64,000 nucleotides of DNA from an uncultured Alphaproteobacteria bacterium (GTDB lineage: Bacteria > Pseudomonadota > Alphaproteobacteria > Rs-D84). The DNA lies in the NCBI GenBank assembly GCA_944389185.1, contig CALXLL010000001.1:1-64000 (forward strand), in the 5' to 3' direction. The stretch's first letter is position 1. Each line of letters starts with the position of its first letter. Position numbers and translations under genes: made by a program. Of this stretch, positions 10,496 to 59,327 are shown one piece after another. The notes beneath the pieces were generated by a model, which was not told the origin of the DNA, did not search any database, and saw nothing but the letters and a program-made list of their open reading frames with translations.

Positions 10496-10530
10496 ATCCC
10501 GCAATCGCGGGATTTCTTATTGCTTTTTTA
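10496..10530 (+). terminator. Intrinsic terminator after tsaE region
   Basis: ATCCCGC (10496-10502), loop AATC and GCGGGAT (10507-10513) are followed by a T-rich tail reaching TTTTTT. It overlaps the 3' end of the convergent ftsA-rpe gene. Confidence 0.8.
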
Positions 10531-12289
10531 ATAGACTTTGAACCGCTAATGGAAAATCAGAACTGTTTGCAAGATAAGAACCACTTACCAATAAATCGGC
10601 ACCGGCTGACCAGCACTGTTGTGCCGTTTCTGCGTTTATTCCACCATCTACGGATATTAAAAACTTTAAACCATATTTCTTGCGCGTCCCAGCAAGAACG
10701 GATATTTTATGAACACATTCTTCTTTGAACTTCTGACCCGCTGCACCAGGTGATACCGTCATAACCATTACTTCGTCTATTTCTCGTAATACAGATGATA
10801 CTATGGATACGGGGCTTTCAGGGTTTATCGCAATCCCCACACGTCTACCAGATGCTTTGATTTGTTTTATTGCAGCCTTTACACCAGATGTGTTTGTAGA
10901 TAAAATCACAGTGTCTGCACCAGCGTTAATTGCATCTTGTGCCCAAACCAATGGGCTTTCTGTCATTAAGTGAACGTGAAGATGATTCTTGGTATGAGAG
11001 CGTATATATTTTATTTCTTCTATGCTACCTACCATCTTATCAACGTAAAAACCGTCCATTATATCTATATGAATAATTGATATACCACCAGATTTAAAAA
11101 GAGAGTATGTTTCGTTCTTTTTCATATCAAAACACATACTGCTGGGCAATATAGGTATGAAGACTTTTTTCTTCTTTTTTCTCTTTTTAAATAAAGATGT
11201 TATTTTTGATGTCAGCCCTGTCGCTTTTTCTTGCCTATTTAAATAGGCTTGTCTGTGTTTAGATTCTTGCCCCCAGATATATTCCGATAAAGATTTTATG
11301 CTGGCATCATAGTGCATATTATATACGGGTAAACCTAATGCGTTTTCAAAAGTTTCTTTTATACCTTCTATTTCGGCACCCCCACCAGTTAATACTATCC
11401 CGGTTGGTCTTATCTTTAAAACCGTCGATGCGGATATTTTTTTAGTTTTTTCTATGATATCTAAAATACAAGGTAATACTATTTCATTTATATCTGCCCT
11501 GGAAAAGTCATAATTTGTGCTGGCTGGTGTGAATCTGTCCATTTCTTTCGGAATAAGACAAGATACTTGCTTTTTAATTTCTTCCGCTTCGTCAAATGTT
11601 ATATTTAGTTTTTCGCTTATTAAATCAGTAATGTCGTTACCACCATATCTAATTTTTTCGTATAACATAGGACCACGATCTGTCCAGATTGATATCGTAG
11701 TGAATTCGGCACCTAAATCTATAAGTATTAAAGACTGCTTCTTTTGTTTAAATACTTTATATTGTAGATATTCCGGACTATAAAAAGCTTTTGGTTGAAT
11801 ATGGGCACTGCGTAAAAAACTATATATTTCTTTTAGTCTTTCGTTTTCATAAAAAATTATTCCGAAAACGGTTTTGAGACTTTTGTCTGTATACCCAATT
11901 GGTGTTTTTACATCTTTTGCACCGGCAAGACTGTATTGTAGCGGTATGATTTGCATAGCATAAAAACCTTGCGGTGCAGATATTTCACTTATCTGTTTTT
12001 TTATGTCTTGTTCAGTTATTTTATGCTCGCTTCCCCAGTCTTTAAAAGACGGAATCATATCAAAAGAACTTTCGCCAAAGTTTCCGGTTATATAAGCCGA
12101 ATCAAAGTGTAAACCTAATTGTTTTTCTAATTCGTCAATTACAGATTTTAAAGCAAATATCGTATCAAAACTGTTTACTGTGTATATGGCAGATTTATCT
12201 ATGTGCGCGTTTTTTATTCTGTGTGCTATACCACGAACACCGCTTGTGCCTATATCTAAACAAAGAAAAGAAGAATCAAATAAGTTCAT
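10517..12289 (-). CDS. FtsA cell-division protein fused to ribulose-phosphate 3-epimerase
   Basis: One uninterrupted 590-codon frame with two complete domains. Residues 1-345 are FtsA, the actin-like ATPase that tethers FtsZ to the membrane: phosphate-1 motif LDIGTSGVRG (11-20), phosphate-2 LIDLGAEFTT (189-198) and adenosine motif VLTGGGAEIEG (299-309). Residues 355-376 form a short amphipathic helix and a polybasic run, as expected for the FtsA membrane-targeting tail. Residues 376-590 are a full-length epimerase of the pentose phosphate pathway: IHIDIMDG (406-413), VHLM (439-442), TVSPGAAGQKF (511-521), VDGG (547-550) and the phosphate-binding VSGS (568-571). All expected metal ligands and acid/base residues (H407, D409, H440, D548) are present. 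It lies 2 bases after ftsQ; ftsZ is not in the window. Confidence 0.93.
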   Translation of the reverse strand: MNLFDSSFLCLDIGTSGVRGIAHRIKNAHIDKSAIYTVNSFDTIFALKSVIDELEKQLGLHFDSAYITGNFGESSFDMIPSFKDWGSEHKITEQDIKKQISEISAPQGFYAMQIIPLQYSLAGAKDVKTPIGYTDKSLKTVFGIIFYENERLKEIYSFLRSAHIQPKAFYSPEYLQYKVFKQKKQSLILIDLGAEFTTISIWTDRGPMLYEKIRYGGNDITDLISEKLNITFDEAEEIKKQVSCLIPKEMDRFTPASTNYDFSRADINEIVLPCILDIIEKTKKISASTVLKIRPTGIVLTGGGAEIEGIKETFENALGLPVYNMHYDASIKSLSEYIWGQESKHRQAYLNRQEKATGLTSKITSLFKKRKKKKKVFIPILPSSMCFDMKKNETYSLFKSGGISIIHIDIMDGFYVDKMVGSIEEIKYIRSHTKNHLHVHLMTESPLVWAQDAINAGADTVILSTNTSGVKAAIKQIKASGRRVGIAINPESPVSIVSSVLREIDEVMVMTVSPGAAGQKFKEECVHKISVLAGTRKKYGLKFLISVDGGINAETAQQCWSAGADLLVSGSYLANSSDFPLAVQSLLKKQ

Positions 12290-12291
12290 CT

Positions 12292-12972
12292 TTATTTTAC
12301 TAAAATCCTGGAATCATCACGCATGTCTATGATTTCCAAATCTTTTGATAAAATGTTGTAATTTTTATCCATAATTATTAAGTTACCAATAGCAGAATAA
12401 GGGTCTTTTTCTGGTAATAATACAGTTATCCCGTTCTTTGTATGAATGTTCCAACGTCTGTTTTCTATCCATTCAAGATAATCTATGTCACCTATCATGT
12501 TATGAGCGACTTTTGTAATCTGGCTGATGTCTTTTGGAACGGCACCAATGAAAACAATATCGGCTTCGCTTCTTTGTGTGACAGGTTTGTTAACAATAGT
12601 CCCTTCAACAGATAATGGAAAATACTGTTGCCCGTCTGTCCATAAAGCAACCGCACGATATAATTTTACCTTGATTGCAAGATTCCCATCTGGTTTTCTG
12701 CGCACTGCAGATGCTTTTACACCAGGAACTTCATTTACTTTTTCGTTCAGTTCATTTAAATTAATAGAATAAGAATCTACCCCAGGTGGTAATGCCACTG
12801 CAGACGCAATTGCAGATAAGTCTTTGTTCGGTATATCCGCGGTAATATAAATGTTTCTTATAATAGACGTTTTACTGGTTCCAAGACCTGTCATAATTAT
12901 TCTGGTCGCAAAATATATTGCTAGTAATATAGCAACAATAAAATATAACCAAAACCATAATCTTTTTCTCAT
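12292..12972 (-). CDS. ftsQ: Cell division protein FtsQ
   Basis: A 226-residue bitopic inner-membrane protein of the divisome that connects FtsB/FtsL to later proteins. The membrane helix is at about 5-27 (FWLYFIVAILLAIYFATRI). A POTRA domain follows (INLNELNEKVNEVPGVKASAVRRKPDGNL at about 70-100), then the beta domain with LWTDGQQYFPLSVEG. It is slightly short for alphaproteobacterial FtsQ. A perfect TATAAT lies on the minus strand at 12986-12981, only 8 bases from the ATG, so the mRNA may be leaderless. It is cotranscribed with ftsA-rpe. Confidence 0.9.
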   Translation of the reverse strand: MRKRLWFWLYFIVAILLAIYFATRIIMTGLGTSKTSIIRNIYITADIPNKDLSAIASAVALPPGVDSYSINLNELNEKVNEVPGVKASAVRRKPDGNLAIKVKLYRAVALWTDGQQYFPLSVEGTIVNKPVTQRSEADIVFIGAVPKDISQITKVAHNMIGDIDYLEWIENRRWNIHTKNGITVLLPEKDPYSAIGNLIIMDKNYNILSKDLEIIDMRDDSRILVK

Positions 12973-57088: not shown

Positions 57089-57095
57089 TGTGAAT

Positions 57096-59327
57096 ATGAA
57101 AAAAAACTCTAAGCTTTTACCGGAAAGAATATCGGACGCGTTAAAGTCATTAATAAAGCGTTTCGTTGGTTTGGTTTTACTGGTTTTGGGCGTATGGGCC
57201 GTTTTCGCAATATTGTTTTTTGACCCTTATTTAGAAGGTTTTTCCGTTGCTAGCACTTTTGGAACTCAAAATGTAATGGGATGGTTTGTAGGCGGGGCTA
57301 TTTTTTTAATCGGGACTTTGCCAAGTTTGTTCTTGGCTTTGTGGATTTCAAGGTTGGGGTTATCTTGGTTGGCTGGTTGGGAATCTAACGATTCGCCGGA
57401 ATATAACTTATTACGCGGTTTTATTGCGTTATGCGTGGGGGCGGCTGGTTTTGGATTGATTCTACCATCTTATAATTTAGGCGGAATGATGGGGGCAATA
57501 GTAAATGCCGATTTAAACAGCATATTGGGTAATTGGACATTATTAATAGGAATTATTTTAATATTAGAGTTTTTCGTGCTTGTTGCAAGCTTGTTGCGTA
57601 TTAAATGGAAGCATATAAAATCAGTCGGTGCTTACTTATATAAAGGATTTATGTGGTTGCTGTCTGTGTTCCATTTGTCTTCTTATAGGGTAGACCAGAT
57701 ATCAGAAGAAGAAAACGAAGAAGTTGTTGATTCGGAAGAAGTAACTCAAGAAAAAAAGAAATTAAAAAAGACTGTGACCGCAAAGAAAAAAGCGCTTAAA
57801 AAAAGCGAATATCAGGAATCTGATATTAAAGATCATAAATATGAACTTCCTGATCCTATGTTCTTGGAAAAATCTAATTTTGGAAAAAACGTAGTTACGC
57901 CAGAATTAAAAAGAAATGCTGCCGCTATGGAAGAGCATTTCGCAGAATACGGGGTTCACGGTAAAGTTGTTGGTATTCGTCCAGGGCCAATCGTAACGTT
58001 ATACGAGTTTATGCCAGCAACAGGCGTCCGTATGGTGGATATAAATAAAACCGTAAAAGATATGACGCGTGCCATGGCAACAGAAAATATTCGTATCGCA
58101 CATATCCCCAGCACCCAATTAATAGGCGTGGAAATGGTAAACCTGAATAGGCAGACTGTGCGTTTTCAATCTTTGGTGGATAATGAAACATTTATTAATT
58201 CTAAGTATCGAATACCATTGGCTTTAGGGGTAGATATCGGTGGAAATCCAATGTATTTCGATTTAGCTAAAATGCCACACGTTTTGATAGCTGGAAGAAC
58301 CGGGTCTGGTAAATCTGTATTCGTTCAATCTATTATAATGTCTATTTTATATCATTTTACGCCGGATAAATGTAAATTGATGATAGTTGACCCAAAAGGT
58401 GTTGATTTTACTTTATGGAAAGATATACCACATTTAATTACACCAGTATTAACAGACGCAAATGATTCTGTAAATGCTTTGAAGTGGTCTGTGCGTGAAA
58501 TGGAAGAAAGATATAAAAAACTGCAATTAATGGGCGTTCAGAATATAGAAGGCTATAACCAGGTAGTTGCTGCTAAACGAGAATCTGGTGAAGTTATGAC
58601 AAGACAAGTTGCGGTTGGAACAAATGAAGAAACAGGAGAACTAGAATTTGAAACCCAGGAAGTTGATTTATCTGATATGCCTTACTTGGTTATCATAATA
58701 GACGAAGTAGCAGATTTGATGTCTGTTGCAAGAAAAGACGTAGAAGCTTGTGTCCAAAGATTGGCACAAAAAGCTCGTGCTGCAGGAATTCATTTGGTTG
58801 CGGCTACTCAAAGACCTGATACTTCCGTTATAACGGGGGTTATAAAAGCGAACTTCCCAACGCGTATATCTTTCCAAGCAAGAAGCACAATAGATTCTAT
58901 GACTACATTAGGCGAAAAAGGTGCAGAGCAATTGCTGTCTTGTGGCGATATGTTATTTAGTGAAGCAGGGCGCGTGCCTGTGCGTATTCATGGTGCTTTC
59001 ATAGAAAACACAGAAATTAATCGTGTCGCAGATTTCTTAAGAGCAGAAGGTGAACCAGAATATGTTTCTGGTATATCGGATGCAGAAGATTCAGCAGGCG
59101 GCGTAAGTGCTGACATTCCAGGTATGCCGGTTTCAAAAGAAGATAAAGACGCAGATTTGTATACGCAAGCAAAAGAATATGTCATAAGAGATAAAAAACC
59201 TACAATTTCTTATATACAAAGAAGATTACGTATAGGATACAATAAAGCTGCTGGTTTTATAGAAAGAATGGAACAAGAAGGCATAATTAGTCAGCCAGAC
59301 GGTAATAATAAACGTCATATCTTGTAA
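57096..59327 (+). CDS. ftsK: DNA translocase FtsK
   Basis: A 743-residue divisome protein that pumps DNA through the closing septum and activates Xer recombination. Four N-terminal helices lie within 1-185, a charged linker at 200-245, and the RecA-like motor has Walker A AGRTGSGKS near residue 411 and Walker B LVIIIDEVADLM. The gamma DNA-reading winged helix is at the end (SYIQRRLRIGYNKAAGFIERMEQEGI). The start is ATG 57096 (or GTG 57090) without a Shine-Dalgarno sequence. Its partner xerD is in this window. Confidence 0.95.
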   Translation: MKKNSKLLPERISDALKSLIKRFVGLVLLVLGVWAVFAILFFDPYLEGFSVASTFGTQNVMGWFVGGAIFLIGTLPSLFLALWISRLGLSWLAGWESNDSPEYNLLRGFIALCVGAAGFGLILPSYNLGGMMGAIVNADLNSILGNWTLLIGIILILEFFVLVASLLRIKWKHIKSVGAYLYKGFMWLLSVFHLSSYRVDQISEEENEEVVDSEEVTQEKKKLKKTVTAKKKALKKSEYQESDIKDHKYELPDPMFLEKSNFGKNVVTPELKRNAAAMEEHFAEYGVHGKVVGIRPGPIVTLYEFMPATGVRMVDINKTVKDMTRAMATENIRIAHIPSTQLIGVEMVNLNRQTVRFQSLVDNETFINSKYRIPLALGVDIGGNPMYFDLAKMPHVLIAGRTGSGKSVFVQSIIMSILYHFTPDKCKLMIVDPKGVDFTLWKDIPHLITPVLTDANDSVNALKWSVREMEERYKKLQLMGVQNIEGYNQVVAAKRESGEVMTRQVAVGTNEETGELEFETQEVDLSDMPYLVIIIDEVADLMSVARKDVEACVQRLAQKARAAGIHLVAATQRPDTSVITGVIKANFPTRISFQARSTIDSMTTLGEKGAEQLLSCGDMLFSEAGRVPVRIHGAFIENTEINRVADFLRAEGEPEYVSGISDAEDSAGGVSADIPGMPVSKEDKDADLYTQAKEYVIRDKKPTISYIQRRLRIGYNKAAGFIERMEQEGIISQPDGNNKRHIL

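Follow-up and report, generated by a model that had tools for sequence, protein, structure and literature searches.

The actin-like division protein FtsA and a complete ribulose-phosphate 3-epimerase (Rpe) are encoded in a single open frame throughout a family of uncultured gut Alphaproteobacteria with tiny genomes, here called f1. The fusion is fixed across the family, the active site of its epimerase half is conserved, and it provides the only rpe in the genome from which it was described. The 88 family members tested have no recognisable FtsZ GTPase domain, and the family carries a conserved gene for an FtsZ homologue that lacks this domain ("headless" FtsZ). We see about an even chance that the fusion is a membrane-anchored, catalytically active protein that works in cell division free of FtsZ polymer, probably together with headless FtsZ.

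The ftsA-rpe fusion and its origin

The fusion gene is intact. We analysed a window (the whole stretch of 64,000 nucleotides) from a 796-kb genome assembled in 15 contigs (completeness 97%). An earlier, sequence-only reading of this DNA had described one 590-codon frame joining FtsA to Rpe without giving its strand. The gene lies on the minus strand at 10517..12289, begins with ATG, has no internal stop, and encodes 590 amino acids in which both domains were found by Pfam and NCBIfam profiles and by structure matches. Pfam FtsA (PF14450) matched residues 188-322 (E=7e-14) and Ribul_P_3_epim (PF00834) matched residues 392-573 (E=8e-44); Pfam and NCBIfam together place Rpe at residues ~380-586. 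An AlphaFold2 model built from 24 family sequences had two confident domains (mean pLDDT of 90.6, with a weak point at 368-370), and its pTM of 0.60 means that the placement of the two domains relative to each other is uncertain. Directly upstream, 2 nt away and on the same strand, is ftsQ (12292..12972, minus strand; PF03799 FtsQ_DivIB_C, E=1e-9), giving the order ftsQ-ftsA-rpe, as in sister families.

The fusion was present in all 13 genera of f1. We scanned 201 genomes of the order, including 183 of f1. The fusion query matched 177 of the f1 genomes, and 175 were retained after removal of G005 and G203, in which the match was MreB-like only. Among the matches listed, query residues 1 to ~588 were covered in one open frame. 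In genera g38 and g42, identity was ~30-47% over the matched parts, again with both halves in one frame; in one genome (G200) the FtsA and Rpe halves were on two contigs. A search across the lineage, as the sequence-only reading had suggested, thus recovered the same fusion from 175/183 genomes, and this rules out an assembly error joining two genes. That reading had also considered an accident kept by a small genome. This is too weak a description for a fusion fixed over 13 genera, in proteins that have diverged to ~30% identity, although an accidental origin from an ftsQ-ftsA-rpe operon is possible.

The arrangement of ftsA and rpe in other families of the order indicates that such an operon is the most likely source of the fusion. 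In f2, f3, f4, and f6, the two genes are neighbours and remain separate. The ftsA gene precedes rpe in f2, f3, and f6; in f3 the ftsA stop and the rpe start overlap as TAATG, and in f4 an ABC-transporter-like gene lies between them. The N-terminus of Rpe in f2 (MFKKRKQK) resembles, by eye, the fusion junction FKKRKKKK. Separate rpe and ftsA genes in close relatives, which had been named as a finding that would count against the fusion, therefore occur in other families of the order, and no separate pair was seen within f1. The ftsQ-ftsA-rpe operon is probably older than f1. In a UvrB tree, the sampled f1 members were grouped with a support of 1.000 and the sister of f1 was not resolved; UvrB was not found in f5. 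By similarity of AccC, f5 was nearest to f1 (610-674 bits, compared to ≤593 for f2-f6), which is a ranking of scores and not a tree.

We consider it highly improbable that the gene gives rise to two separate products through a change of frame at the A-rich junction, an internal start, or cleavage. There are runs of A at the junction in the window's genome, and ftsA and rpe overlap or nearly touch in sister families. However, the frame was open in every fusion read, and the length of the linker was narrow in most genera. A start codon with a Shine-Dalgarno-like motif was present in 1/85 linkers, compared to 2.9% in the control; with no excess of start signals, we rejected an internal start for a free Rpe. 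We favour one membrane-anchored bifunctional protein as the probable product of the fusion gene.

Properties of the two halves

The Rpe half (residues 377-590 plus the stop; 10517..11161, minus strand) is a TIM barrel with a full active site, as judged from its match to a solved Rpe and the conservation of its residues. Residues 377-590 matched 2fli (2fli_L) with a VIA Z of 32.2 (1.5 A over 214 residues, 35% identity). The sequence-only reading had assigned the active site to H407, D409, H440, and D548, and the positions are right (codons at 11069-11071, 11063-11065, 10970-10972, and 10646-10648, respectively, all on the minus strand). These metal and acid-base residues are essentially invariant over 93 distinct fusions: H407, H440, and D548 were each found in 93/93, and D409 in 92/93, with Glu in the remaining one. 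The score for the Rpe subfamily NF004076 (NCBIfam) was 183.2 bits, above the cut-off of 165, and that for the strict rpe equivalog TIGR01163 was 152.3 bits, below the cut-off of 212.6. The second PDB sequence match of the Rpe half was D-allulose-6-phosphate 3-epimerase. Mean pairwise identity was 65.8% in the Rpe half versus 47.5% in the FtsA half, indicating that Rpe is the better conserved of the two.

The metabolic context points to ribulose-5-phosphate as the substrate. There was a single PF00834 match, and hence one rpe, in the window's genome. Neither a second rpe nor a second ftsA, which the sequence-only reading had proposed looking for, was present there, and the other FtsA-family match was MreB. 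Using E. coli queries, we found tkt and rpiB in this genome and in a single-contig relative (G100); rpiA, tal, zwf, and gnd were not found in either with such queries. Non-oxidative pentose-phosphate steps without transaldolase have been described in what is probably the same lineage (PMC12306168). With transketolase and RpiB present, the fused Rpe probably supplies the pentose phosphates of the cell. Rpe is needed to reach ribose-5-phosphate when transaldolase and the oxidative branch are missing, and the fused Rpe would be essential for this supply. Based on its residues, its single copy, and the tkt/rpiB context, we infer that the Rpe half acts on ribulose-5-phosphate as the only ribulose-5-phosphate/xylulose-5-phosphate epimerase of the cell, and that together with transketolase and RpiB it would supply ribose-5-phosphate by a route that needs neither transaldolase nor the oxidative branch.

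It is improbable, in our judgment, that the barrel serves a structural purpose, with an oligomeric Rpe fused to FtsA forming a multivalent membrane scaffold in place of the FtsZ polymer. Rpe enzymes are often oligomers, those of plants and streptococci being hexamers, and the entries for the nearest Rpe structures (2fli and 1rpx) hold several chains each. The fusion and the loss of FtsZ (see below) are also distributed alike over f1, but two changes that coincide at one node of a tree amount to a single event, which does not prove a link. A purely structural role would not require the invariant catalytic residues.

The FtsA half (residues 1-341; 11267..12289, minus strand) has an actin fold with an FtsA-like arrangement. 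Residues 4-344 matched the solved FtsA 7q6f with a VIA Z of 32.9 over 333 residues, in preference to PilM (25.4) and MreB (21), and the Z was 31.6 against 4a2a, the solved structure of FtsA bound to the FtsZ tail. The ftsA profile TIGR01174 (NCBIfam) matched residues 43-337 with 95.9 bits, below its cut-off of 175.85. The ATP motifs DIGTS (12-16), DLGAE (191-195), and GGGAE (302-306) are kept. The positions of the P1, P2, and adenosine motifs were retained in 89-93 of the 93 distinct fusions (D12 and D191 in 89/93, G302 in 93/93); in the fusions of g42, D12 and D191 are replaced by Y and N.

The linker (residues 342-376; 11162..11266, minus strand) is a candidate membrane-targeting sequence. 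It contains a terminal helix, whose amphipathic part is ATGLTSKITSLFKK, and the polybasic KKRKKKKK. The helix and polybasic stretch that had been read from the letters at the junction are borne out by the sequence, which is amphipathic and basic there, and by a modelled helix (343-367). The median hydrophobic moment of the linker helix was 0.65 in the 93 fusions, compared to 0.46-0.74 in the C-termini of sister FtsA proteins. A basic tail follows the helix. Most genera retain the amphipathic helix, and none is obvious in g38. The amphipathic helix that precedes the barrel is the most likely membrane anchor, and we picture the FtsA half as a diverged actin-like scaffold that would be held at the inner membrane by this helix.

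The FtsA half has either changed its duty or come under relaxed constraint. In almost every pair it has diverged more quickly than Rpe, and FtsA profile scores were 243-280 bits in sister families, 95.9 in the fusion of the window, 57.4 in g42, and 30.7 in g38. This drift, the loss of the aspartates in g42, and the loss of the helix in g38 indicate that ATP-dependent scaffolding or membrane binding may be dispensable in some members. The same observations, including profile scores that drop from 280 bits to 31 over the order, are what would be expected if an accidental operon fusion had tied Rpe to the start of ftsA, already adjacent to rpe in sister families, and if FtsA were now mostly an N-terminal passenger after the decay of FtsZ. 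We find this account doubtful. The aspartates of the ATP site are kept in 89/93 distinct fusions, a complete FtsA fold is predicted, most genera retain the amphipathic helix, and headless FtsZ has a conserved tail of the putative FtsA-binding type. Moreover, ~340 useless residues should shrink in genomes of 0.8 Mb over the age of the family. We therefore prefer the reading in which the FtsA half is still a membrane-bound scaffold.

Loss of recognisable FtsZ and a headless homologue

Members of f1 have no recognisable FtsZ GTPase domain. Using TIGR00065 at E 1e-3, we found FtsZ in 0/88 f1 genomes (59 of the window's genus and 29 further family members) versus 39/40 genomes outside f1; the lone non-f1 genome without a match (G095) is an assembly of 390 contigs. 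In the window's genome, an unfiltered FtsZ profile search gave nothing significant, and the FtsZ signature motif (GGGTGTG) was in no ORF of at least 50 aa. A sensitive local search found no FtsZ in G100, in which one motif match fell in a 400-aa ORF unlisted by the FtsZ profile. Without an FtsZ GTPase domain, cells would have no ordinary Z-ring to which the epimerase could be recruited, and the proposal of the sequence-only reading that the epimerase is brought to the division ring is unsupported in its usual sense.

The decay of FtsZ may have been stepwise. The only f5 genome (G062) has a weak FtsZ match (31 bits) to an ORF (L138:10522-11787, minus strand) that is without the GTPase signature motif. 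A profile from other FtsZ sequences recognised this ORF (E=1e-14, single-sequence search). The position of f5 as nearest to f1 by AccC agrees with stepwise decay but does not prove it. In sister families, ftsZ is gone from the ftsQ-ftsA cluster (L139, L143) and adjoins a gene matching a cluster of the window's genome (C2:158-168 kb) that is phage-like by eye.

A headless FtsZ homologue is conserved in f1. The best sub-threshold FtsZ match in the window's genome led to a protein of 291 aa from its ATG (C2:135660-136550, minus strand; loci L114, L195). Homologues were found in 174/183 f1 genomes and nowhere else in the order. The profile also finds the gene in g38 and g42, leaving g39 (one genome) as the only genus without a copy. 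In an alignment of 30 copies, the N-terminus is conserved (MKTKIIYISG...FGVPVD) and the C-terminus hardly varies (GLMGDLFGWAGxAANDEDFSIPGFF). The acidic region between them is variable, with short motifs that are conserved. The tail peptide is EDISIPGFFSNGTQKK.

Both ends of the headless protein resemble FtsZ. The N-terminal block (~45 residues) matched the C-terminal domain of FtsZ in hhalign with a score of 37.8 (P=7.9e-6), compared to 20.8 for the best of 200 column permutations. The first profile had given P=2.8e-4, and the match became stronger once diverged genera were added. The top match of this block among 1221 ORFs of sister genomes was the FtsZ of G059 (E=2.8e-5). Homology of the start to FtsZ is thus well supported by sequence comparison. 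The tail (~15 residues) scored 18.2 against the FtsZ tail, a short match with a narrow margin over the permutation maximum of 17.0, and homology to the FtsA-binding tail of FtsZ is suggested by these scores. Because it has neither the GTPase domain nor the signature motif, headless FtsZ is not expected to form a tubulin-type filament.

The headless gene adjoins a divergent zapA (PF05164, 45 bits). Directly downstream is a gene for a small membrane protein (C2:135186-135656, minus strand) that has no Pfam match and is related to the neighbour of the FtsZ-like ORF of f5. Genes related to this membrane-protein gene hold the same place in other f1 members. We also considered whether FtsZ might be encoded in two pieces. 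A further fragment was not found, and <60 nt separate the headless gene from the divergent small gene and zapA that lie upstream, too little for a GTPase domain.

It is quite improbable, though a little less so than two products from the fusion, that an FtsZ too diverged to be recognised is encoded at another place in the genome, or that the headless gene is not a remnant of FtsZ. The headless match covers only ~45 N-terminal and ~15 tail residues, and the f5 ORF without a GTPase signature indicates that strong divergence of FtsZ does happen. However, the signature motif was absent from ORFs of at least 50 aa in the window's genome, and the one 400-aa ORF with the motif in G100 was unlisted by the profile. 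The statistics of the headless profile are well above the permutation controls, the position beside zapA is conserved, and the related membrane-protein neighbour is shared with f5.

Other division and shape genes remain. Those found are FtsQ, MreB, and FtsK, the last an ftsK-like DNA translocase in the window (57090..59327, plus strand) that was named by eye from its sequence; G100 also has FtsW and FtsI homologues. G100 keeps mraY-ftsW-murG, ftsI, and rodA/pbp2 homologues, and since it does, the absence of mraY-ftsW-murG from the assembly of the window's genome may be an assembly gap. The Mur ligase domain (PF08245) was found in 15/183 f1 genomes versus 17/17 genomes of f2, f3, f4, and f6, and there were no Mur ligases in the window's genome, in G100, or in nearly all of genus g1. 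The fusion and headless FtsZ occur together with four Mur ligase matches in three genomes of other f1 genera (G218, G216, and G202). The fusion and the change in FtsZ probably preceded the loss of the Mur ligases, and we do not favour prior loss of the Mur pathway as the cause of FtsZ loss.

In a separate search with E. coli FtsY (phmmer, E 10), no homologue was found in the window's genome or G100, and even Ffh, which shares the GTPase domain with FtsY, was not picked up. These two genomes may have lost the signal recognition particle.

We believe that the division apparatus of f1 probably runs without an FtsZ polymer, and that the tail of headless FtsZ probably docks on the FtsA half, linking FtsA to ZapA and to FtsQ, FtsK, FtsW, and FtsI. 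More tentatively, f1 might divide by means of an FtsA scaffold that carries the sole epimerase, with FtsZ reduced to a tail-bearing adaptor and the epimerase coupling pentose supply or oligomerisation to division. Tethering the enzyme in this way might also bring a metabolic advantage.

Comparison with known systems

The two halves of the fusion and headless FtsZ each have a known counterpart. The fusion is like FtsA (Thermotoga maritima 1e4g/4a2a, Vibrio maritimus 7q6f, and E. coli 7q6d) in the predicted fold of residues 4-344, the ATP motifs, the C-terminal amphipathic helix, and its place after ftsQ. It differs in its identity of ~18-19%, its score below the NCBIfam cut-off, its C-terminal enzyme, and the lack of an FtsZ GTPase domain in the family. 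The barrel is like Rpe (Streptococcus pyogenes 2fli) throughout, including the metal and acid/base residues and the phosphate-binding motifs. Unlike that enzyme, it is fused to FtsA throughout f1, falls below the strict rpe cut-off, and has a substrate that we infer. Headless FtsZ shares with FtsZ 45 residues of the C-terminal domain and an acidic linker, its IPxFF tail is a candidate FtsA-binding peptide, and it differs in having neither the GTPase domain nor the signature motif.

To our knowledge, nearly all bacteria have FtsZ, and we know of no other organisms with the combination of FtsA-Rpe and headless FtsZ. We found no report in the open-licence literature of an FtsA-epimerase fusion or of FtsZ loss in the f1 lineage. 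More than 180 sequenced species in which the FtsZ GTPase has seemingly been lost, and FtsA and a tail protein kept, constitute a natural experiment on the purpose of FtsZ and on the ability of FtsA to organise division in its absence. With sister families that have a normal FtsZ and one in which the GTPase signature is gone, the path of the loss should be traceable. The fusion may also connect division physically to central carbon metabolism, a connection testable by expression of single genes in E. coli.

We rate the f1 system as a probable form of FtsZ-independent division with a new architecture. Work on antiparallel double filaments of FtsA and FtsN shows that FtsA can make membrane filaments of its own with an MreB-like preference for curvature (PMC7613929). 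Because FtsA alone can form membrane filaments, a role for FtsA as the basis of division in f1 is possible; those filaments are proposed to act together with FtsZ (PMC7613929). Chlamydia, Planctomycetes, and Wolbachia supergroup J divide without FtsZ, and MreB or unknown factors are described as taking over (PMC10591338, PMC5147048). Like Chlamydia and Wolbachia J, f1 is without FtsZ and keeps MreB, RodA, and PBP2 homologues. Unlike Chlamydia, Planctomycetes, and Wolbachia J, it retains an FtsA joined to a metabolic enzyme and has conserved a remnant of FtsZ with a tail.
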